64,000 nucleotides of DNA, from assembly GCA_019096065.1 (NCBI GenBank), contig JAGUCH010000002.1:14582501-14646500 (forward strand), given 5' to 3'. A model generated the notes under the pieces. It saw only the letters and a list, made by a program, of their open reading frames with translations, had not been told where the DNA came from and made no database searches. Made by a program: the position numbers and the translations under genes. Source of the stretch: Paracyclopina nana. Its lineage: Eukaryota > Arthropoda > Copepoda > Cyclopoida > Cyclopettidae. Shown here one piece after another: positions 12,006-29,134 of this stretch. How positions within the stretch are numbered: the stretch's first letter is position 1; every line of letters starts with the position of its first letter.

Positions 12006-13402
12006 TTATTCCTATTTATTTTTTAAGTATTTGGTGTTCCACTTCAATATTTCTTTGCTTTTTACGTTTTCTCTTGCACTGCAGTGATATATGAAATTTT
12101 GGTGATTTTCAATAAACCGTAGGAAAATATGCTAATTGTATTCACATCTTTGAAGGATTCTGGCTTTTTTACCAAAAAAAACCACGATTTTTAAGTGCAA
12201 CGAAAAAAGAGAATAGAACACAGATTTCCTCTAGAAATTTTCGCTTTAAGAGCAACTATTAAAATGAATTGTTAAATTGCAAAAAAAGTAAGGTATCAAA
12301 CACTAAATTATCCTCTATAATTTTTTGAACATTCATAGAGCCCTCGTAAGCGAAATATTTTGAAAATTTGCTTGGGAAGAAAATAGCCTGTTGCTTAGTT
12401 TTGATCAAATGTATATTTTTTGTTGTGTCGAGTTGGAGCCATTCATACTAGAAAATCAAATAGGCTTAATGAAATATTTTTTTGAAAAAATAATTGATAC
12501 GCTTTTGTTAGAGCTAGAGTTGCACATTGCTTATGGCTTGAAAAGGTGCCATTTTGATTATGTCATATTAGTCACGCTTTAGGTACAAGAGCTCCAGAAG
12601 CCCTATTTTTTATCTTGTACTAAGCGCAGCTAGCTCAAATTGTTGGGCTAGATGGCGCTGAGAATCTGGTGACTTAATGCATTTGGCTTATTGGTAACAT
12701 GTCAATGACAAACATCAAAGTTAGGCCATACATAATAAAGTTTTGACTTGTCCATCAATTGTGCAAATATAACTTGGCTATTTTTCCTATAGAGTGTGTC
12801 CTAAAAATGCAAGCAATTATTTTTGCTTCTCTTTGTCAATTTTTGTAAATTAGGCCCACTTGAAATATTTTTTGGCTCGTTTGCTAATGTTGCATGCCCG
12901 GATCTAAATACACACAAGATATTCACTGCATAATGTTGTTCATGTTCTTTTTTCAAAGTAAAATAATTGTTGCGCTATGAATAATACCAATGTCCTTTTT
13001 TTATTTATAATTTTTGATAGAACTTATGCTACTATTTCCTATTATCTTTCATGCGTGGAAAGTTGCTAGATAATTATGGTGAAAATATGTGCACTTCAGT
13101 TGCTCTCAGGCAGTTGCATTTGTTCAGTCATACAAGAAGACTTAACTTCAAAATAGTGGATAGTTTCTGAGCAGTTTTTGATGAGTAGAACTCAGTTCTG
13201 TCGTTTATTATATTGTGTTTTGCTATTTTTTATTTGGTAAATTTACAGAGAAACCATAAACACCTCAAATTATTGTTCCAATCGGTGCTATGGTTTGAGC
13301 AGTACTTTAGTTTGGTGTTTATTTGTCAAAAAAGTTCAGCTGTTGTTTTGCGCAAGATTCTCTCATCAAAATCTACTGCTCTGGATATTTCAAGAAATAG
13401 AA
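12006..13402. other. AT-rich intergenic region
   Basis: Holds the COPA 3' UTR and the upstream region of the first PAN/kelch gene. No coding sequence recognised. Segments near 12690-12780 and 13090-13160 recur near 24300-24390 and 24680-24725, upstream of the second PAN/kelch gene, so the gene duplication included flanking DNA. Confidence 0.6.
12111..12116 (+). terminator. Poly(A) signal of COPA
   Basis: AATAAA 106 bp downstream of the COPA stop codon; the only canonical hexamer close to the gene end. Confidence 0.6.
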
Positions 13403-15180
13403 ATGATAACATCTCTAGTTTCCTCCTTCCTTCTGTTGATAAGCACTTCAACGCTTGCAATCATAACCACTCACACCTCCTTTTTTAATGGAACCTATGA
13501 CAAGTCAACCATGATGTTCACAGTATTGCCGGAAATTGACCAGCCCATGTAGGCAAATCAAATTAAAAAATATACAAGTTTAAATCCTTTGCCAATACTG
13601 AGTAGGAGCTTTATGACATGTTCATTTGCTTGCCTGAGATCTTCAAAGTGTACTGGCTTCAAGTTTCAAGGACCTAAATGTAATTTGACCAATAACATAC
13701 CTGCCAAAGCAATTGAGAGTTCAGAAAATAAGATTGATTTATGGCTGTCATCTAAAGCTACTCCTGGTAAGTGAGCTTCAGTTATAGGTATGATGCAAAG
13801 AAAATCAACTTTTTTCTCAACCTATTTAGTTCCCCATATTTTGCTGATAGATGCAACTGGAAATGGAGAAATATATGATTTCAGTACATCAGAGTCTTTA
13901 AGCTTACCTGCCAAATTCAAGATGACTTGGCCCAAGCCAAGTAAGGGTGGCCCATTTATTCTCAGCGCTAATGGGTCACTGAGAGCATGGCCAATCTTCA
14001 CTGGTAGCAATAAATCTGTGGCATGGAATATTGGAGAGTCTGCCATTACACAAACAAACTCCGATGTATCACAAATTATGTTGGGATACTCTGCTGGATG
14101 GGCTTCAATTGATGAAATCATGTTCATTATTGGAGTAGGATGTAAGAATTTTAGATGCTGACACATGCAAAGGTCTAATTCATACATTAAAAATGCTCAT
14201 ATCTCCCGCCATATTTCTCATACATACTTTTTTTAACATCGCCCCCTAGCGCCGCAACTCGGCTTTTAATTTAAGCTAACTCCATGCACAGAGCTGTACA
14301 GAAAAGAGTATAACAAACCGAGCAGATCATCAGAGAAGTGTATTTACTATTTAGAGAGATGGGCAATCAGTCAGCTGCTACAAAAAGGTTCGAAAAATGC
14401 TTGCTTCATTGGAGCAAATTCATGACGGGTCAGAAACAGGCGAATTCTTGTGTTTAACAAATTGGGCTTGGGGTTGATTCGTTTGTTTGTCTTTCTAAAG
14501 CGTACTGCTAAGAGCAACAAAATGTGGGGCTATTTATTTTGATTCGATCAATTATCTCTAGGTCTGGATTGGTCTGAATGTTATATGATTTATGATCTGT
14601 AACACTATATTTTTCAGCTGACAGAAAGGAGAGCTGGGGATATGTTGACAGCAAATGGAAAAAACTCAAATCATTTAGCAAAGAAATCATGTATACATGT
14701 GCAGCCTTTATTCCTGGGGATACCAACTCTGTATATTTCATGGGTGGTTGTAATGATGCTAGCTTGTATAAATATTCTTTTGAGCACAATTCATATTCTG
14801 TTCCTCATGTGGATGACTCAGAAGTAATTAATTATTTGTCGTGCACTGGATATATGGATGCCGAGGGATATCAATATTTTGTTAGAGTAGGAGGATCATA
14901 TCAATCAGTGGGTAAAACCAATGAAGTGCAATTATTTTGCTCTAACTGCAATTCTCCTGGATGGACCTCATTGCCCAATTATCCTGTTACTATCATGAGC
15001 TCATCATCCATTGTAAACGATGGAATTCTGTACACATTTGGAGGAATAACAGATGGGAATGGAGAAGTTTTAAAAGCCTACCAACTGGATTTGAGGTCAT
15101 CACTGCAATGGACTCAATTTAGTGACTTAACAAGTGCAGTGAGGAGGGCCAATGTTTATGTTATACCTTACGGATTATAG
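13403..15180 (+). CDS. Secreted PAN/apple-like and kelch-like protein, copy A
   Basis: Protein of unknown function. The predicted CDS joins 13403..13548, 13603..13766, 13830..14141 and 14618..15180 (394 aa); the second exon could start 3 bp later. Exon 1 encodes a signal peptide (MITSLVSSFLLL, then ISTSTLA). Exon 2 encodes a small Cys module with spacing C-x3-C-x5-C-x8-C, like a PAN/apple domain, which usually binds proteins or carbohydrates outside cells. Exon 3 is a unique Trp/Ser-rich region (GPFILSANGSLRAWPIF). Exon 4 has kelch-like blocks (VYFMGGCNDASLYKY, ILYTFGGITDGNGEV). The same four-exon structure recurs in copy B at 25145, which supports the model. The exon 1 donor GTAGGC is weak. 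I do not recognise the family. Confidence 0.75.
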
Positions 15181-17915: not shown

Positions 17916-18968
17916 GAGTCCAAATGCATCATAAGACACACAAATAATTTTTCCATCTTTAACCTAAACTTGCATCGAATTTTTTATGGTATTTGGCCAT
18001 TTTTATAAGAGGAAAGGGGGATCCTTACCTGGTTCTACAAGAATATACAAAATGCTACAAAACACATTGTACATGGTACTTCTTCCAAAGTACATCATAC
18101 TTAGTGCTACTGGTTCATAAAATGGATCGTACCTGGTCAAGAAAACTTAGGGGACTGTGACTTAGTAAAATTTTCAAGGAAGACTTTTCAGGAAAGACAA
18201 AAGACTAATGCAAAAATGTTTCCAAAAAACCCAACATATTTAGACCTTAACAGCTCCTGACTGTAAGCCACAAGCAATCCTGATACAAGGTTTCGGATTC
18301 GAAAATCAGCTTTTTGGCCCAAACCCCTTGCAATAGTGTGAAAAGTTGGAAAATTAAGTTTCATGACCACTGGACCACTCTAGGGTGGTCAAGTGGTGCG
18401 GTAAGCAAAATGCTGTTTAGATTAAGGCAAAAATGAATGGGGGCCTAGCTGGAGGTGTGGGTATGGCCAGAAATCAACTATACCCTAATTATCTAGGCCC
18501 TGGGGGGGTCTCTAGGTGTCAGGGAAAAAAAGTTGAAAAACGTAAACAAACTAGTTGAAAAATGGCCAAAATTCACTTTTTCCGACCCTACTTTGAGGGC
18601 ATTTTCCTCCCATGTCAGTGGATGGATTTTTGATTTTTCAACTCTGGATGAAAGTCAAAGATTGGAACTGTCATTACAAAAAAGAAAATTCATTATATGT
18701 CTGCAGATGGAGCTCCTGGAGCGATTCAAAAATACACATTTTTTACAAAAATGACTTTACAGTAAAACATATAAAACTGACAAGCGGAAGTGAAGTCAAA
18801 TACAAACATTTTTTTATCATCACAAACATGTCAGTGCACACCCAGAGTGCACATCCCAAACAAAAAAATTCAGGATATATAGGCCCTGCCCCTGGCCAGG
18901 AGCCTGGGCGGTCCCATTTATTCTCTGCTGTAACAGCTACATAGGCCAACAGGGAGCCCTTGGCTCCC

Positions 18969-21514
18969 ATGTCAGTGGATGAAAGTGTCCTTTTTTGGCC
19001 TCCTGAGGTCTGTGCTGACCTTGAGGCTTGGTCCAAGCAAAAAAATTCAGGGTACATTGGCCCTGGCCAGGAGCCAGGGCGGTACTGGTTATGCTCTGCT
19101 GCAGCAGCTACATAGGCCAACAGGGAGCCCCTGGCTCCCATGTCAGTGGATGAAAGTGCCCTTTTTCAGCCTCCTGAGGTCTGTGCTGACCTGGAGGCTT
19201 GGTCCAAGCAAAAAAATTCAGGGTACATTGGCCCTGGCCTGGAGTCAGGGCGGTACCGGTTATGCTCTACTGCAGCAGCTTCATTGGCCAACAGGTAGCC
19301 CCTGGCTCCCATGTCAGTGGATGAAAGTGTCCTTTTTTGGCCTCCTGAGGTCTGTGCTGGCCTGGAGGCTTGGTCCAAATAAAAAAATTCAGGGTACATT
19401 GGCCCTGGCCTGGAGCCTGGGCGGTACCGGTTATACTCTGCTGCAGCAGCTACATAGGCCAACAGGGAGCCCCTGGCTCCCATGTCAGTGGATGAAAGTG
19501 CCCTTTTTCAGCCTCCTGAGGTCTGTGCTGGCCTGGAGGCTTGGTCCAAATAAAAAAATTCAGGGTACATTGGCCCTGGCCTGGAGCCTGGGCGGTACCG
19601 GTTATACACTCTGCTGCAGCAGCTACATAGGCCAACAGGGAGCCCCTGGCTCCCATGTCAGTGGATGAAAGTGCCCTTTTTCAGCCTCCTGAGGTCTGTG
19701 CTGACCTGGAGGCTTGGTCCAAGCAAAAAAATTCAGGGTACATTGGCCCTGGCCAGGAGCCAGGGCGGTACCGGTTATACTCTGCTGCAGCAGCTACATA
19801 GGCCAACAGGTAGCCCCTGGCTCCCATGTCAGTGGATGAAAGTGTCCTTTTTCAGCCTCCTGAGGTCTGTGCTGGCCTGGAGGCTTGGTCCAAATAAAAA
19901 AATTCAGGGTACATTGGCCCTGGCCTGGAGCCTGGGCGGTACCGGTTATACTCTGCTGCAGCAGCTACATAGGCCAACAGGGAGCCCCTGGCTCCCATGT
20001 CAGTGGATGAAAGTGCCCTTTTTCAGCCTCCTGAGGTCTGTGCTGACCTGGAGGCTTGGTCCAAGCAAAAAAATTCAGGGTACATTGGCCCTGGCCAGGA
20101 GCCAGGGCGGTACCGGTTATACTCTGCTGCAGCAGCTACATAGGCCAACAGGTAGCCCCTGGCTCCCATGTCAGTGGATGAAAGTGTCCTTTTTCAGCCT
20201 CCTGAGGTCTGTGCTGGCCTGGAGGCTTGGTCCAAATAAAAAAATTCAGGGTACATTGGCCCTGGCCTGGAGCCTGGGCGGTACCGGTTATACTCTGCTG
20301 CAGCAGCTACATAGGCCAACAGGGAGCCCCTGGCTCCCATGTCAGTGGATGAAAGTGCCCTTTTTCAGCCTCCTGAGGTCTGTGCTGACCTGGAGGCTTG
20401 GTCCAAGCAAAAAAATTCAGGGTACATTGGCCCTGGCCAGGAGCCAGGGCGGTACCGGTTATGCTCTACTGCAGCAGCTTCATTGGCCAACAGGTAGCCC
20501 CTGGCTCCCATGTCAGTGGATGAAAGTGTCCTTTTTTGGCCTCCTGAGGTCTGTGCTGGCCTGGAGGCTTGGTCCAAATAAAAAAATTCAGGGTACATTG
20601 GCCCTGGCCTGGAGCCTGGGCGGTACCGGTTATACTCTGCTGCAGCAGCTACATAGGCCAACAGGGAGCCCCTGGCTCCCATGTCAGTGGATGAAAGTGC
20701 CCTTTTTCAGCCTCCTGAGGTCTGTGCTGACCTGGAGGCTTGGTCCAAGCAAAAAAATTCAGGGTACATTGGCCCTGGCCAGGAGCCAGGGCGGTACCGG
20801 TTATACTCTGCTGCAGCAGCTACATAGGCCAACAGGGAGCCCCTGGCTCCCATGTCAGTGGATGAAAGTGCCCTTTTTCAGCCTCCTGAGGTCTGTGCTG
20901 ACCTGGAGGCTTGGTCCAAGCAAAAAAATTCAGGGTACATTGGCCCTGGCCAGGAGCCAGGGCGGTACCGGTTATACTCTGCTGCAGCAGCTACATAGGC
21001 CAACAGGTAGCCCCTGGCTCCCATGTCAGTGGATGATAGTGTCCTTTTTCAGCCTCCTGAGGTCTGTGCTGGCCTGGAGGCTTGGTCCAAATAAAAAAAT
21101 TCAGGGTACATTGGCCCTGGCCTGGAGCCTGGGCGGTACCGGTTATACTCTGCTGCAGCAGCTACATAGGCCAACAGGGAGCCCCTGGCTCCCATGTCAG
21201 TGGATGAAAGTGCCCTTTTTCAGCCTCCTGAGGTCTGTGCTGACCTGGAGGCTTGGTCCAAGCAAAAAAATTCAGGGTACATTGGCCCTGGCCAGGAGCC
21301 AGGGCGGTACCGGTTATACTCTGCTGCAGCAGCTACATAGGCCAACAGGTAGCCCCTGGCTCCCATGTCAGTGGATGATAGTGTCCTTTTTCAGCCTCCT
21401 GAGGTCTGTGCTGACCTGGAGGCTTGGTCCAAGCAAAAAAATTCAGGGTACATTGGCCCTGGCCAGGAGCCAGGGCGGTACCGGTTATGCTCTGCTGCAG
21501 CAGCTACATAGGCC
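18969..21514 (+). repeat. Left satellite array, about 15 units of 171 bp
   Basis: Tandem units beginning ATGTCAGTGGATGAAAGTG recur at 18969, 19140, 19311, 19482 and so on, 171 bp apart apart from a 2-bp insertion in one unit. Two unit types (one with GGTCCAAGCAAAAAAATTC, the other with GGTCCAAATAAAAAAATTC) mostly alternate, giving a 342-bp higher-order period. Confidence 0.92.
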
Positions 21515-21528
21515 AACAGGGAGCCCCT

Positions 21529-23050
21529 GGCCTATGTAGCTGCTGCAGCAGAGTGTATAACCGGTACCGCCCAGGCTCCAGGCCAGGGCCAATGTACCCT
21601 GAATTTTTTTATTTGGACCAAGCCTCCAGGCCAGCACAGACCTCAGGAGGCTGAAAAAGGACACTTTCATCCACTGACATGGGAGCCAGGGGCTACCTGT
21701 TGGCCAATGAAGCTGCTGCAGTAGAGTATAACCGGTACCGCCCTGGCTCCTGGCCAGGGCCAATGTACCCTGAATTTTTTTGCTTGGACCAAGCCTCCAG
21801 GTCAGCACAGACCTCAGGAGGCTGAAAAAGGACACTTTCATCCACTGACATGGGAGCCAGGGGCTACCTGTTGGCCTATGTAGCTGCTGCAGCAGAGTAT
21901 AACCGGTACCGCCCTGGCTCCTGGCCAGGGCCAATGTACCCTGAATTTTTTCTCTTGGACCAAGCCTCCAGGTCAGCACAGACCTCAGGAGGCTGAAAAA
22001 GGGCACTTTCATCCACTGACATGGGAGCCAGGGGCTCCCTGTTGGCCTATGTAGCTGCTGCAGCAGAGTATAACCAGTACCGCCCAGGCTCCAGGCCAGG
22101 GCCAATGTACCCTGAATTTTTTTATTTGGACCAAGCCTCCAGGCCAGCACAGACCTCAGGAGGCTGAAAAAGGACACTTTCATCCACTGACATGGGAGCC
22201 AGGGGCTACCTGTTGGCCTATGTAGCTGCTGCAGCAGAGTATAACCGGTACCGCCCTGGCTCCTGGCCAGGGCCAATGTACCCTGAATTTTTTTGCTTGG
22301 ACCAAGCCTCCAGGTCAGCACAGACCTCAGGAGGCTGAAAAAGGGCACTTTCATCCACTGACATGGGAGCCAGGGGCTCCCTGTTGGCCTATGTAGCTGC
22401 TGCAGCAGAGTGTATAACCGGTACCGCCCAGGCTCCAGGCCAGGGCCAATGTACCCTGAATTTTTTTATTTGGACCAAGCCTCCAGGCCAGCACAGACCT
22501 CAGGAGGCTGAAAAAGGGCACTTTCATCCACTGACATGGGAGCCAGGGGCTCCCTGTTGGCCTATGTAGCTGCTGCAGCAGAGTATAACCGGTACCGCCC
22601 AGGCTCCAGGCCAGGGCCAATGTACCCTGAATTTTTTTATTTGGACCAAGCCTCCAGGCCAGCACAGACCTCAGGAGGCCAAAAAAGGACACTTTCATCC
22701 ACTGACATGGGAGCCAGGGGCTACCTGTTGGCCAATGAAGCTGCTGCAGTAGAGCATAACCGGTACCGCCCTGACTCCAGGCCAGGGCCAATGTACCCTG
22801 AATTTTTTTGCTTGGACCAAGCCTCCAGGTCAGCACAGACCTCAGGAGGCTGAAAAAGGGCACTTTCATCCACTGACATGGGAGCCAGGGGCTCCCTGTT
22901 GGCCTATGTAGCTGCTGCAGCAGAGCATAACCAGTACCGCCCTGGCTCCTGGCCAGGGCCAATGTACCCTGAATTTTTTTGCTTGGACCAAGCCTCAAGG
23001 TCAGCACAGACCTCAGGAGGCCAAAAAAGGACACTTTCATCCACTGACAT
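21529..23050 (-). repeat. Right satellite array, about 9 inverted units of 171 bp
   Basis: Same 171-bp units in the opposite orientation. The outermost four units translate identically to the outermost four of the left arm, including the frame-shifting 2-bp insertion. The right arm is shorter by 1026 bp overall, which equals six units. Confidence 0.92.
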
Positions 23051-23770
23051 GGGAGCCAAGGGCTCCCTGTTGGCCTATGTAGCTGTTACAGCAGAGAATA
23101 AATGGGACCGCCCAGGCTCCTGGCCAGGGGCAGGGCCTATATATCCTGAATTTTTTGTTTGGGAGAAGCCTCTGGGTGTGCACTGACATGTTTGTGATGA
23201 TAAAAAAATGTTTGTATTTGACTTCACTTCCGCTTGTCAGTTTTATATGTTTTACTGTAAAGTCATTTTTGTAAAAAATGTGTATTTTTGAATCGCTCCA
23301 GGAGCTCCATCTGCAGACATATAATGAATTTTCTTTTTTGTAATGACAGTTCCAATCTTTGACTTTCATCCAGAGTTGAAAAATCAAAAATCCATCCACT
23401 GACATGGGAGGAAAATGCCCTCAAAGTAGGGTCGGAAAAAGTGAATTTTGGCCATTTTTCAACTAGTTTGTTTACGTTTTTCAACTTTTTTTCCCTGACA
23501 CCTAGAGACCCCCCCAGGGCCTAGATAATTAGGGTATAGTTGATTTCTGGCCATACCCACACCTCCAGCTAGGCCCCCATTCATTTTTGCCTTAATCTAA
23601 ACAGCATTTTGCTTACCGCACCACTTGACCACCCTAGAGTGGTCCAGTGGTCATGAAACTTAATTTTCCAACTTTTCACACTATTGCAAGGGGTTTGGGC
23701 CAAAAAGCTGATTTTCGAATCCGAAACCTTGTATCAGGATTGCTTGTGGCTTACAGTCAGGAGCTGTTAA

Positions 23771-25144
23771 AACAACGCCAGTAAATTATAAAACAGGCTG
23801 ATGCTGGAGCTCCTTTGGCTCATTAGGAGGGTCTAGGCAATAGGCATCACATTACTCCAGTAGAAAAATGTGAATATGATGACCAGCTCTGGCCAAGCTT
23901 GCTACTAAGCAATGTTGCCCTTGCCAATAGCACCGGGACAAACAAAATGAGGCTGTGGTGTCCTGGGTCACAAGGGGAGACTCCATTGACAGCATTGCTT
24001 AGTAGCTTGAGCGTGCAAAAAAGGCATTTAATAAAAGACTCTATTCAGGAATGGACCTATTGGTTTATTCATCTGATGCAAATTGTGTCCTTCTCTAGAA
24101 GTATTTGAAGCACTTTATGTGAAAATGTGATTTTTTAAAGCTAAGGCACATTTGAACGCTTAGATTTTTAATGATATTTCAGCCCCAAATTAGCAACAAG
24201 CTTAAATGAAGTTGTATTAACTTCTTCATACAAAAATTATTGAAAGAGGTTATAGACATTTTCATGCAGCAAGTGTTTTCCTTGATATTGTAACGCAAAC
24301 GCCAATTTGTGGCAGGTCAATGGTTAATGTCAAAGTTAGGTCATGCAATATCAAGTTTTGACTCATCCATCAATTTTGCAAATAAAAGTTTGCAATTATT
24401 ACTAAAGATTGTGCTTTGAAAATGTAATTTACTTTGATTTTTGTTTCTATCAGCATTTTCTTATTATAAGGCTCATTTGAAAATAGTATTACATATACAG
24501 GATTTTTACATATGTTTCATGTTCAGATCTAAATTTCTTTTTTTTTTATGTTCAACAGTTTTTGAATTCTTCAGCTAAATATCCTTTACTTTATTGAAGC
24601 TTTTTTGAAAGGAGCTTTTGCGATATTTCCTATAATCTTTCATGTATAGAAAGTTTCTCGATAATTATGGGCAATAAGTGTGCACTTCAGTTGCTCATAT
24701 GAAGTTGCATTTGTTCAGTCATACCAGGGGGTCTCGTGAGTTCTTGACGCAAGTTTTATATACTAGTCTGTAAATCTGTTTGTGGCGCTAGTATAGTACT
24801 TATTACAAAGCGCATGAGCTCAAGTGACATGTCAGTCATGGATACAAGCAGGCTAATCTCACGCTTTTTCAACAGAGCTCCTAGATAAGTTCTGGTTTTT
24901 TTAAAAAAAAGTATGCGATTTAGGCACTTCTTGCTAATTTAGAGTGGGATTTTTTGGAAATTTTTGGAAGTGAAATCCACAGATTTCTATTCAGATTTTG
25001 TCTTGAAGCCCACCACAGCTTGGTCAGACTGTGTGCTATATAGAAAAACAGCGACAAGAACTTACCTTATTAGTATAGATAATCTTGAGTCATATGTACA
25101 AGAAGACAAAACTTTAAAATAGTGGATTTTTCAAGAAAGTAGAA
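23771..25144. other. Intergenic region upstream of copy B
   Basis: No gene recognised. It contains duplicates of the flank of copy A (near 24300-24390 and 24680-24725). About 365 bp at roughly 24724-25088 interrupts the similarity to the copy A upstream sequence, between GTCATAC-like ends, so it may be an insertion. Confidence 0.55.
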
Positions 25145-28100
25145 ATGATAACATCTCTGGTTTTCTCCATCTTAATCTTAATAACCACTTCAACGCTTGT
25201 AGTTACAATAACTCAAAGCTCCTTCATTAAAGGAACTTATGACAATTCAACCATGTTGTTCACAGTATTGCCGGAAATTGACCAGCCCATGTAGGCCTAT
25301 CCAATTAAAAAATATATACAATATAAATCCTTTGCCAATACTGAGTAGGAGCTTTATGACATGTTCATTTGCTTGCCTGAGATCTTCAAAGTGCACTGGC
25401 TTCAAATTTCAAGGACCTAAATGTAATTTGACCAATAACATACCTGTCAAAGCAATTGAGAGTTCAGAAAATAAGATTAATTTATGGCTGTCATCTAAAG
25501 TTACTCCTGGTAAGTAGCTTCAATTCTAAGCATGATTCCAAGAAAATCAAGTTTTTTCTCAACCCATTTAGTTCCCCATATTTTGCTGATAGATGCCGGC
25601 AGCACTGGAAATGGAGAAATATATGATTTCAGTACATCAGAGTCTTTAAGCTTACATGCCAAATTCAAGATGACTTGGCCCAAGCCAAGTAAGGGTGGCC
25701 CATTTATTCTCAGCGCTAATGGGTCACTGAGAGCATGGCCAATCTTCACTGGTAGCAATAAATCTGTGGAATGGAATATTGGAGAATCTGCCATGACCCA
25801 AACAAACTCTGATTTATCAGAAATCATGATAACAATCTCAGCTGGATGGGCTTCAATTGATGAAATCATGTTCATTATTGGAGTAGGATGTAAGTAGTTT
25901 ATTTGAAAAGGTCTGATTCATTCATATAAAAGTGCACTGCTTCTTACACGCACCCCACCAGAACTTTGCCTGAAAATTTGGTTGAAAATCAAGGATAATT
26001 CGTGAACTATTGATATTCTTGATTATTTTATGAATCGGTATCAAATCGGTGACGTTTTTTCGAGTTGAGAAAGTGATTAGCACTCGAATGATTATTTAAA
26101 TCAACCAATGATTATTTGATAATTCTTTCCTAATCAATTGTTAACAATTCTTTCTCAACCTCCAAACCAGAATATTCAGGAACTTTTCAGGAATTGAATT
26201 CAGTTAATATTCAAGGACTTGATTTCAGTTATTATTCAAGGACCTGTCAAAAATTAATTTTTGGGGGAGCTTTCTAGCTTTTTGATTAAGCTTTCTCTAT
26301 CTTTAGACTATGATGGATTTTGAAAGAAAGAGAAAGAAAGAAAGTTAGAAAAGCTAGAAAGAAAGTTTACCCATGGTGGATTTGAACCCATGAACCTCAG
26401 ATTTGGAATCCAGCGCCTTGCCTCTAGACCACAGAGGACCCACTACAATTTGCAATATTTTTAGCAACAATATTGTGCCAAAAATGCTATAGATGGAGCT
26501 AGCTTAAATTCTTAGAGTACTTTGAATTTTTTGTAAGTCCATAAGTATGAATATAACCAAAAAACATGAAAATTAAGTGATCGCTCGACAAAAATACTAG
26601 CAAGATTATTCCTCGATATTCTCATGATTCAATTATTCTTAAATTTGACCTGACAGTGTGAGTCTCAATTAATTGCTGTATTGGTGAACTTGTTTGAATC
26701 AGTTGATAATTGAGAAACATAAATTGCTGACTTGCAAGCAAAAAAAGGTTGATGATTTCTTCATTACATTCGAGAAAAAAACATAAATGTTCCTATAGTG
26801 ACCAATTCACTGATGAAACATTTATGATTGATCAATAATTAATTGTTAATGAAAATTAATTGAAAATATATCGCTTGAATATTTAGTGATCAGTGTGACG
26901 TAAAAATCACACAATTATTTCACATGAAGTTGATACACAAAACTTTCTTGATGATTCGAGAGAAAATCAAGCACTAAATAGTCATGTTTACTGAGAAAAC
27001 AAAAATGAAATGATTGATAATGAAAGAATCATCTAAGAATGTTTATCAAGCTTTTCGTTAAAGATTCTTTGCCAAGAATTCGAGTAATAATCATCAATGA
27101 TTATTTCCTTGAGTCAAATTAACCGACTAATCGAGACAAAATCGTAGAACGATTCTTTACTGAATACGTAGTCTGGAGGAATCGCGTAACATTCGTTCTC
27201 GAATCGGGAACCAAAGTTCTGGTGGGGCATATCTCCCTTAATTAAAAGCAAATTTTTCTTACATACTTTTGGTCTACTACATGGAAGAAGAACAAATGTC
27301 CTGCTATCAAGGGTACTAGAAAACATTTGATATTTGTCAAGTTCCTAGAAAATGCTTAGAAAAGAACTGCAACATGAAAAGCTGTGTTGGTTTGGTAAAC
27401 TGAATTATAATTCGAGGAAATGTGGAGGACCACATCAATCAGTGTGTAGAACCAGGGAAATACTACTGATTTCCCTCAAATTGTCAAGAATTCTTGTCAC
27501 TGGGGCGTAAGTCAGTTCTAGACGGAAATTTTGGAATTTTATATCTCAACCTATCATTAGTTCCTTCGTCAGTTGTGCGAGGGCGCTAATGCAGCATACT
27601 TTGTTAGAAAAGCGGGAAATTCAAAATATTGTCACATAGAACAATGGCCCATAGCAAATTGTCCCATGGTAAATGTCTCATAGTATATTGTCAAATAGCT
27701 TATTGTCACATAGCAAATTGTCGCATAATAAATTGTCTCATAGCACAATGGCCCATATCATATTGTCACATAGCATATTGTCAAGTAGTATATCGTCTCA
27801 TAGAACAATGGCCCATAGCAAATTATCCCATGGTAAATATAATGATATACCCTGCTGGATTGGCCTATGCTCAATGTCACATTGCACAATGGCCCATAGC
27901 ATATTTTCACATAGCTTTTTATCACTTAGGATTTTGTCTCATAGCATATTGTCTCATAGCATATTGTCTCAAAGCATATTGTCTCATAGCATATTGTCTC
28001 AAAGCATATTGTCTCATAGCAAATTGTCTCTTAGGATTTTGTCTCATAGTGTGACAATTTGAAATCGAACAATCTGCTAGATGACTTAATGCTATGAGAC

Positions 28101-29134
28101 AATATCCTATGAGACAATATGCTATGAGCCAATTTGCCATGTGACAAATTGCTATGAGACAATAAGCTATGTGACAACATGCTATGAGCCAATGTGCTAT
28201 GAGACAATTTGCTATGGGACAATGTGCTATGAGACCCTCATGTCTTAATAATTTATCCCCCTAAAAAAGTACCTCCACTCATCAAAGCAAAGTATGATTT
28301 AGAACTTAACTCCCAAGTGTTTCTTCAAAAAAAATCGGTAGATGGTTTGCCTTTGTTATGATACTGTTGTCTATACAGCTCTCTACTTTTTTCGTCAGAT
28401 GCCCCTCCATAGCATAGTCAGCCAAAGTCCAGAAGCTGTGATAGTGGGTCACCTTATATTCTAGATCATTGTAAAATCATAAAATCCGAAGTCAACCATG
28501 TTTTTTTGCGTTATTGCAAATGCTGCCTTTACCCTCTTTTTTGCTAATTTGCTATACACTCCATGTTTCAGCTGATAATAAGGAGAGCTGGGGATATGTT
28601 GACAGCAAATGGAAAAAACTCAAATCATTTAGCAAAGAACTCCTCTATACATGTGCTACCTTCATTCCTGGGGATACCGACTCTGTCTACTTCATGGGTG
28701 GTTGTAATGATGCAAGCTTGTATAAATATTCTTTCGAACACAATTCATATTCTGCTCCTCATGTGGATGAGTCCAAAATATTTTCTTTTTTGTCATGTAC
28801 TGGATATATGGATGCTGGGGGATATCAATATTTTGTCAAAGTAGGAGGAACACATCAGTCAGTGGGCAAAACCAGTGGAGTGCAATTATTTTGCACTAAC
28901 TGCAATTCTCCTGGATGGACCTCATTGCCCAATTATCCTCTTCCAATCATAAGCTCATCATCCATTGTAAAAGATGGAATTCTGTACACATTTGGAGGAA
29001 TTACAGATGGAAGTAATGGAGAAGTTTTAAAAGCTTACAAATTGGATTTGAGATCATCCCTGCAATGGACTCAATTCAGTGACTTAAAAAGCGTAGTGAA
29101 GAGGAGTAATGTTTATGTTGTGCCATATGGATAA
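25145..29134 (+). CDS. Secreted PAN/apple-like and kelch-like protein, copy B
   Basis: Paralogue of the gene at 13403 with the same exon plan. The CDS joins 25145..25290, 25346..25509, 25572..25889 and 28572..29134 (396 aa). It has a signal peptide (MITSLVFSILIL), a PAN/apple-like Cys module in exon 2, a unique middle domain in exon 3 with two extra residues relative to copy A, and kelch-like blocks in exon 4 (VYFMGGCNDASLYKY, ILYTFGGITDGSNGEV). Exon lengths 1, 2 and 4 equal those of copy A. Intron 3 has grown to 2.7 kb through insertions. All four exons are intact, so both copies appear functional. The role is unknown; secreted proteins of this build often face pathogens or matrix, but nothing here proves it. 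Confidence 0.75.
25953..27227. mobile_element. 1.28-kb TIR element in intron 3 of copy B
   Basis: Terminal inverted repeats CCCCACCAGAACTTTG at 25953-25968 and its reverse complement at 27212-27227. The interior is AT-rich without a transposase. The matching intron of copy A (14142-14617) lacks it, and similarity between the introns resumes with CATATCTCCC right after the element, so it inserted after the duplication. A tRNA-like segment lies within it. Confidence 0.7.
26370..26443 (-). pseudogene. tRNA-like sequence (possible SINE head or tRNA pseudogene)
   Basis: On the minus strand a B-box-like GGTTCAAATCC and an A-box-like TGGTCTAGAGG are spaced as in a tRNA. The anticodon position would read CCA (Trp). 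The acceptor and anticodon stems pair poorly, so I do not call a working tRNA. It could be a tRNA-derived SINE or pseudogene. Confidence 0.4.
27632..28236. repeat. Inverted 15-bp minisatellite in intron 3 of copy B
   Basis: From 27632 to about 28052 units like TCTCATAGCATATTG recur every 15 bp with variants. From about 28088 to 28236 the same unit runs inverted (CTATGAGACAATATG). The multiple-of-three unit creates long spurious open frames of SHSIL-like pentapeptides in both orientations. It could extrude as a hairpin. Confidence 0.8.

Follow-up and report, generated by a model that had tools for sequence, protein, structure and literature searches.

The sequence studied here, called the window, is a stretch of 64,000 nucleotides from the copepod Paracyclopina nana (contig JAGUCH010000002.1, in our coordinates G000:C2:14582501-14646500), and the genome searched comprises 92 Mb in 10 contigs. 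The window contains a large palindrome at positions 18251-23766, which fits exactly between two TTAA tetranucleotides. An earlier note on this DNA had described a giant satellite palindrome at 18247-23770; these coordinates are exact and take in both flanking TTAA. The two facing arms of 3.3 and 2.2 kb around 14 nt (AACAGGGAGCCCCT), which were part of that description, were confirmed by self-BLAST and by the position of the spacer. The outermost A and T of the spacer also pair, so that the strict spacer is 12 nt. The arms are unequal (3264 bp on the left, 2238 bp on the right), and the right arm is 98.7% identical over 2245 bp to the outer part of the left one in self-BLAST. Each arm consists of an outer domain of about 640 bp followed by an array of tandem units of 171 bp. 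These units, also named in the earlier note, were detected by Tandem Repeats Finder (TRF) in both arms, with 15.4 copies in the left and 9.3 copies in the right array, a surplus of approximately six units on the left (Table 1). The differences between the arms near 18831-18880 and 23150-23190, to which the earlier note had pointed, are visible in the sequence.

Table 1. Parts of the palindrome and of its target site, in window positions.
Feature	Position	Strand	Basis
TTAA, left target-site copy	18247..18250		TTAA flanks 25/25 elements
Left outer domain of terminal inverted repeat, starts CAGCTCCTGACTGTAAGCC	18251..18889	+	48 long genome matches
Left array, ~15 units of 171 bp	18890..21514	+	TRF 18890-21531
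Central spacer, 12 nt if outermost A-T pair is counted as arm	21515..21528		Coreless copy
Right array, ~9 units of 171 bp, inverted	21529..23129	-	TRF 21528-23129
Right outer domain, inverted	23130..23766	-	99% to left outer domain
TTAA, right target-site copy	23767..23770		Bases directly outside element

The outer sequence had been taken for unique, but the genome-wide search with the outer arm, which had been proposed together with that claim, found further copies: at least 48 matches of approximately 710 bp or more, a lower bound because 40 of the 123 candidates were scored. The 23-mer at the end of the arms (TTAACAGCTCCTGACTGTAAGCC) occurs 53 times in the genome in exact form and 72 times with up to three mismatches, while its reversed control does not occur (0 matches). 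The 53 exact ends resolve into 25 facing pairs and three single ends, which we refer to as family A. Its ends read CAGC..GCTG, and TTAA is present on both borders in 25 of the 25 pairs, with flanks differing between the sites. Inverted ends combined with a target duplication of fixed length are the mark of a class II transposon, and this combination was found at all of these pairs. Chance cannot explain a 2.2-kb inverted repeat at 98.7% identity, with identical ends facing each other at 24 further places.

The joined flanks of all 25 sites were also searched in the genome, with scores computed for 40 of 740 candidates. Every one of the 41 matches listed is to the joined flanks of a single locus, L050, and 40 of them cover these flanks over the full 124 bp; thus, the L050 element was inserted into a dispersed repeat, many copies of which are free of the element. 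Two of these empty paralogues of the L050 site were fetched, and both are continuous with a single TTAA. Based on the TTAA on both sides in 25 of 25 pairs and on the single-TTAA empty sites for one insertion, the palindrome is a non-autonomous terminal-inverted-repeat DNA transposon. An ordinary satellite array made palindromic by a local inverted duplication, with its importance in a hairpin RNA or a cruciform, would account for inverted 171-bp arrays around a short spacer. It is, however, contradicted by the element-free L050 sites and by identical outer ends with TTAA borders at 25 places in different flanks, and we give it almost no credence. Of the former designation as a satellite palindrome, the inverted satellite arrays hold true, but the structure is an inserted transposon with precise ends and a TTAA duplication and not a folded-back satellite. 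The view that it is no simple assembly artefact is borne out by 21 fully read copies with the same design at different places. Hairpin RNA from read-through of the palindrome is plausible; such a hairpin as a source of small RNAs, and a cruciform, would be in line with the structure.

In addition to these 21 short copies, which are 2434-5516 bp long, three others were read at their ends alone. Divergence from the majority sequence does not exceed 1.41% in 41 of 42 outer arms, and the two arms within one element are 0-1.1% apart in 20 of the 21 copies. The palindrome was probably mobile in recent times. The number of 171-bp units is unequal between the arms of the copies; unequal arms and variable unit counts fit unequal exchange. 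The copy at L049, with arms 5% apart, was considered as a chimera, but when its right arm, the one exception among the 42, was aligned pairwise with L043 and gaps were allowed, identity reached 99.6% with 26 gap columns, which points to indels and not to exchange between subfamilies. Thirteen of the 21 short copies contain between their arms a core of about 180 bp with a common junction, in one orientation in nine copies and in the other in four. Two places in the genome may be related to the short copies: 456 bp at G000:C3:6710662-6711117 between facing A ends (one exact, one with one mismatch) could be a miniature derivative, and at G000:C7:1772515-1773681 facing ends with one mismatch surround a 77% unit match, possibly an older relative.

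The origin of the core was found in one of the 25 pairs, whose ends are spaced 13.4 kb apart (C2:9462619-9476008; its interior is locus L059). This long copy shares its 23-bp ends with the short copies, and a comparison of its two arms over 778 bp showed no difference. In the short copies, the core is 96% identical over 184 bp to the right-hand end of the L059 interior and comprises, as it does there, the final codons of a gene together with 3’ sequence of that gene. Therefore we suggest that the short copies arose by internal deletion from an element like the L059 copy, though not from that very copy.

L059 carries two divergently oriented genes, one for a transposase-like protein on the minus strand and one for a fusion glycoprotein on the plus strand. 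Nine open reading frame (ORF) pieces, four from the plus and five from the minus strand, were scanned against Pfam; gene models, intron-like borders and the signal-like stretch were judged by eye. Two of the four plus-strand pieces match PF24664 (Monjiviricetes_fusion), one with 47.1 bits (E 1.2e-12) and the other with 26 bits (E 2.9e-6), just below the cut-off of 27 bits. Between the plus-strand pieces are short gaps whose borders resemble those of introns, and the glycoprotein pieces are preceded by a signal-like hydrophobic stretch; apparently the genes contain introns. The conserved minus-strand pieces hold the motifs DWAMK and SDNAG, which by eye resemble acidic sites one and two of DDE transposases.

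TTAA is also the target of Sola3 transposons. The piggyBac and Kolobok groups share this target as well, with ends that begin with CCYT in the former (PMC10175614) and with 5’-RR and YY-3’ in the latter (PMC9587614). Both were rejected by the ends of our element, which start with CAGC instead of CCYT and read 5’-CA and TG-3’ instead of RR..YY. A search for the DDE_Tnp_1_7 domain gave no match in the seven minus-strand A and B pieces scanned (for lineage B see below). One could still argue that the palindromes were moved by another genomic TTAA transposase of the piggyBac or Kolobok type, and that their link to L059 consists in shared ends alone. The common target speaks for this explanation; however, the ends fit neither group, and the long copy has not only the same 23-bp ends but also contains the core of 13 of the 21 short copies, so that we regard it as very unlikely.

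A second, diverged lineage supports the association of the two genes with such elements. The minus-strand exon of A finds two other places, at C1:7.40 Mb (B1) and C2:16.93 Mb (B2), and the glycoprotein exon of A finds both of them and two weaker matches, C1:15497740 (39 residues) and C2:12433737 (21% identity), the last being one of the abundant glycoprotein loci of this genome. The B element is approximately 12.9 kb long. The arms of B1, about 1585 bp long, are identical at 99.7% of positions, and in both of them an outer domain is joined to four to five 180-bp units. The ends of B1 (CAGCCAGTATTG) are CAGC ends as in A, and it has the two genes of A, arranged and oriented alike. Identity between A and B is 52% in the transposase-like exon and 44% in the last glycoprotein exon. 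Six B pieces were scanned against Pfam, two from the minus and four from the plus strand. Three of the four plus-strand pieces match PF24664 at 21.1, 24.5 and 56.8 bits, the last alone being above the cut-off; thus, in A and in B the last exon pieces identify a chuvirus-type fusion glycoprotein. Over 9.57 kb, B2 (L063, C2:16930800-16940300) and B1 are 97.3% identical, and their alignment has 64 mismatches but 132 gap openings; the indels are perhaps base-level sequencing errors. Matches to B1 at 100% over 691 bp were obtained with both outer arms of B2 and with an unpaired arm at C2:73513, and matches at 87-92% with fragments at C1:6.35 Mb. TTAA is found at four of five B borders (B1 right, both of B2 and the unpaired arm). 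A satellite motif shared between the 171-bp unit of A and the 180-bp unit of B was considered and dropped, as 25 dinucleotide shuffles out of 300 reached the score of the best local match. B1 also has, between its two genes, a tandem repeat at L060:4814-5407 with a unit of 169 bp in approximately 3.5 copies.

When A and B are compared, third codon positions are the most different in six of six pieces (0.54-0.63) and second positions the least different in five of six (0.15-0.29); the exception is a glycoprotein piece with 0.26 at first and 0.32 at second positions. One of the transposase-like pieces in this comparison includes a stop and probably intron sequence. The pattern fits purifying selection on both genes since the split of A and B.

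Genes for chuvirus-type glycoproteins are also frequent elsewhere in this genome. All 68 matches scored, from 381 candidates, are above the Pfam cut-off, and six contain an internal stop. The same search found none in 14 control genomes. In the one neighbourhood that was read, upstream of the glycoprotein at C3:78164-79900, the region C3:75000-78164 (L075) encodes reverse transcriptase, RNase H and integrase domains. Given this abundance, capture would be easy, and the glycoprotein gene of the transposon could be a passenger, a viral fossil or a retroelement Env carried unused; such fossils are common in arthropods (PMC10084718). At odds with a passenger are its place and orientation, kept in two lineages that are about 45% identical in the glycoprotein, the open exon pieces in A and B1, the conserved second codon positions, and a divergence similar to that of the transposase-like protein. 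We therefore consider this explanation unlikely. Both genes were kept in lineages whose proteins have diverged by about half, and judging from these comparisons the glycoprotein most likely has a function for the element, for example in its spread between cells or individuals.

Taken together, the palindrome is, with good confidence, a non-autonomous member of a family of TTAA-targeting, satellite-armed terminal-inverted-repeat transposons, whose long relatives carry a transposase-like and a glycoprotein gene. Several observations weigh against this. Empty sites are demonstrable for just one of the 25 insertions, at the 40 of 740 candidates scored. The core is absent in eight of the 21 short copies, including that in the window. 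Divergence between the long A copy and the short copies amounts to 4-5%, so that the former is not the direct parent of the latter. The left border of B1 reads ATAA, and the ORFs of B2 are broken, with stops and many indels. Finally, the DDE assignment was made by eye from the two motifs, and a third acidic site was not found; we call the gene transposase-like. The five minus-strand pieces of L059 gave no Pfam match over the cut-off (best E 0.22), nor did the two of B. A comparison of this gene with PDB gave no match except a weak one to Sin3a (E 0.1), phage records gave none, and 243 pattern matches in viral contigs included none that was confirmed.

Under the favoured explanation, the transposase-like protein would recognise the CAGC..GCTG ends and insert the element at TTAA. 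Internal deletion would have removed the genes, leaving both satellite arms and the gene tail, and the transposase-like protein of long copies could mobilise the deletion derivative in trans. The window copy and the other palindromes without a core would then have lost it, and unequal exchange in the arrays may alter the number of units. For the arrays themselves, which are present in two lineages with unlike units, a role as extra transposase-binding sites is one option. The glycoprotein may carry the element between cells or hosts. It is tempting to speculate further, although we hold this to be rather less probable than its opposite, that these are capsid-less “enveloped” cut-and-paste transposons, which would combine a TTAA-specific transposase-like gene, an RNA-virus-type fusion glycoprotein and fast-changing satellite arms, spread between cells or hosts like Env-bearing long terminal repeat (LTR) elements, and shed palindromes.

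These results are important for several reasons. A striking palindrome is resolved as a mobile element, and a transposon can make and carry dispersed satellite repeats. Should the glycoprotein act on behalf of the element, a DNA transposon with two genes would have taken the step that turned LTR retrotransposons into retroviruses, and the horizontal transfer of DNA transposons, long a matter of debate, would gain a route that can be tested.

Some further observations concern the surroundings of the palindrome and the assembly. The regions 12715-15175 and 24330-29132 of the window, which flank the palindrome on either side, are 81-91% identical, and both contain a kelch-like gene (by eye), apparently by a local duplication with altered order. 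Despite this duplicated gene on either side, no paralogous stretch crosses the insertion point, and thus no empty site was found within the window. At 27626-28235, arrays of 15-bp units in both orientations form together an imperfect inverted repeat. On contig C1, among the first places listed, (TTAGG)n runs are found no more than 13 and 19 kb from its respective ends; such runs point to an arthropod, and the ORFs of the window look animal-like by eye.

Nematode Mavericks, or Polintons, are DNA transposons with a membrane-fusion protein, and Polintons have polymerase, integrase and capsid genes. Our family is similar in combining a DNA transposon with a fusogen; it differs in that no Polinton genes (protein-primed polymerase, integrase, capsid) were matched among the 15 ORF pieces scanned, which are a subset of the ORFs. 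The foldback transposon Tetris of Drosophila virilis makes target duplications of 8-10 bp, and its transposase was not found (PMC4079207). The palindromes resemble Tetris in their gene-less copies and in their long inverted arms, where an outer domain is combined with a variable number of internal tandem repeats (about 220 bp in Tetris); long inverted arms with internal tandem repeats are what defines foldback elements. Unlike Tetris, they have a 4-bp TTAA duplication instead of 8-10 bp, other ends, and gene-bearing relatives in the same genome. The authors of the Tetris study, following work on Galileo, suggest that internal repeats are additional transposase-binding sites (PMC4079207). With piggyBac and Kolobok the family shares the TTAA target duplication (PMC10175614, PMC9587614), in contrast to its CAGC..GCTG ends and its transposase-like pieces without a Pfam match.

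With respect to the glycoprotein, chuvirus-type proteins occur in LTR retroelements and as fossils (PMC10084718, PMC12282059). One unclassified complete element of Bemisia tabaci carries such a glycoprotein (PMC10084718), and in horseshoe crabs DNA-transposase domains lie near some of the fossils (PMC12282059). As in those LTR retroelements, this glycoprotein family was captured by a mobile element; unlike in them, it is carried by an inverted-repeat transposon that has a TTAA target and satellite arms and is present in two lineages, the terminal repeats are inverted and not direct, and neither reverse transcriptase nor integrase was detected among the 15 A and B pieces scanned. A TTAA transposon of about 13 kb with a chuvirus-type glycoprotein and both genes was not found among the best-ranked literature, which covered few subscription papers and no bioRxiv preprints. 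Viral envelope genes in a DNA transposon are known from Teratorn, a piggyBac-herpesvirus fusion of 41-182 kb (PMC10175614, PMC6431247). In both Teratorn and the family described here, a DNA transposon with a TTAA target is combined with viral genes that include one for an envelope glycoprotein, but our element of about 13 kb has two recognised genes, and its glycoprotein is of the RNA-virus type.

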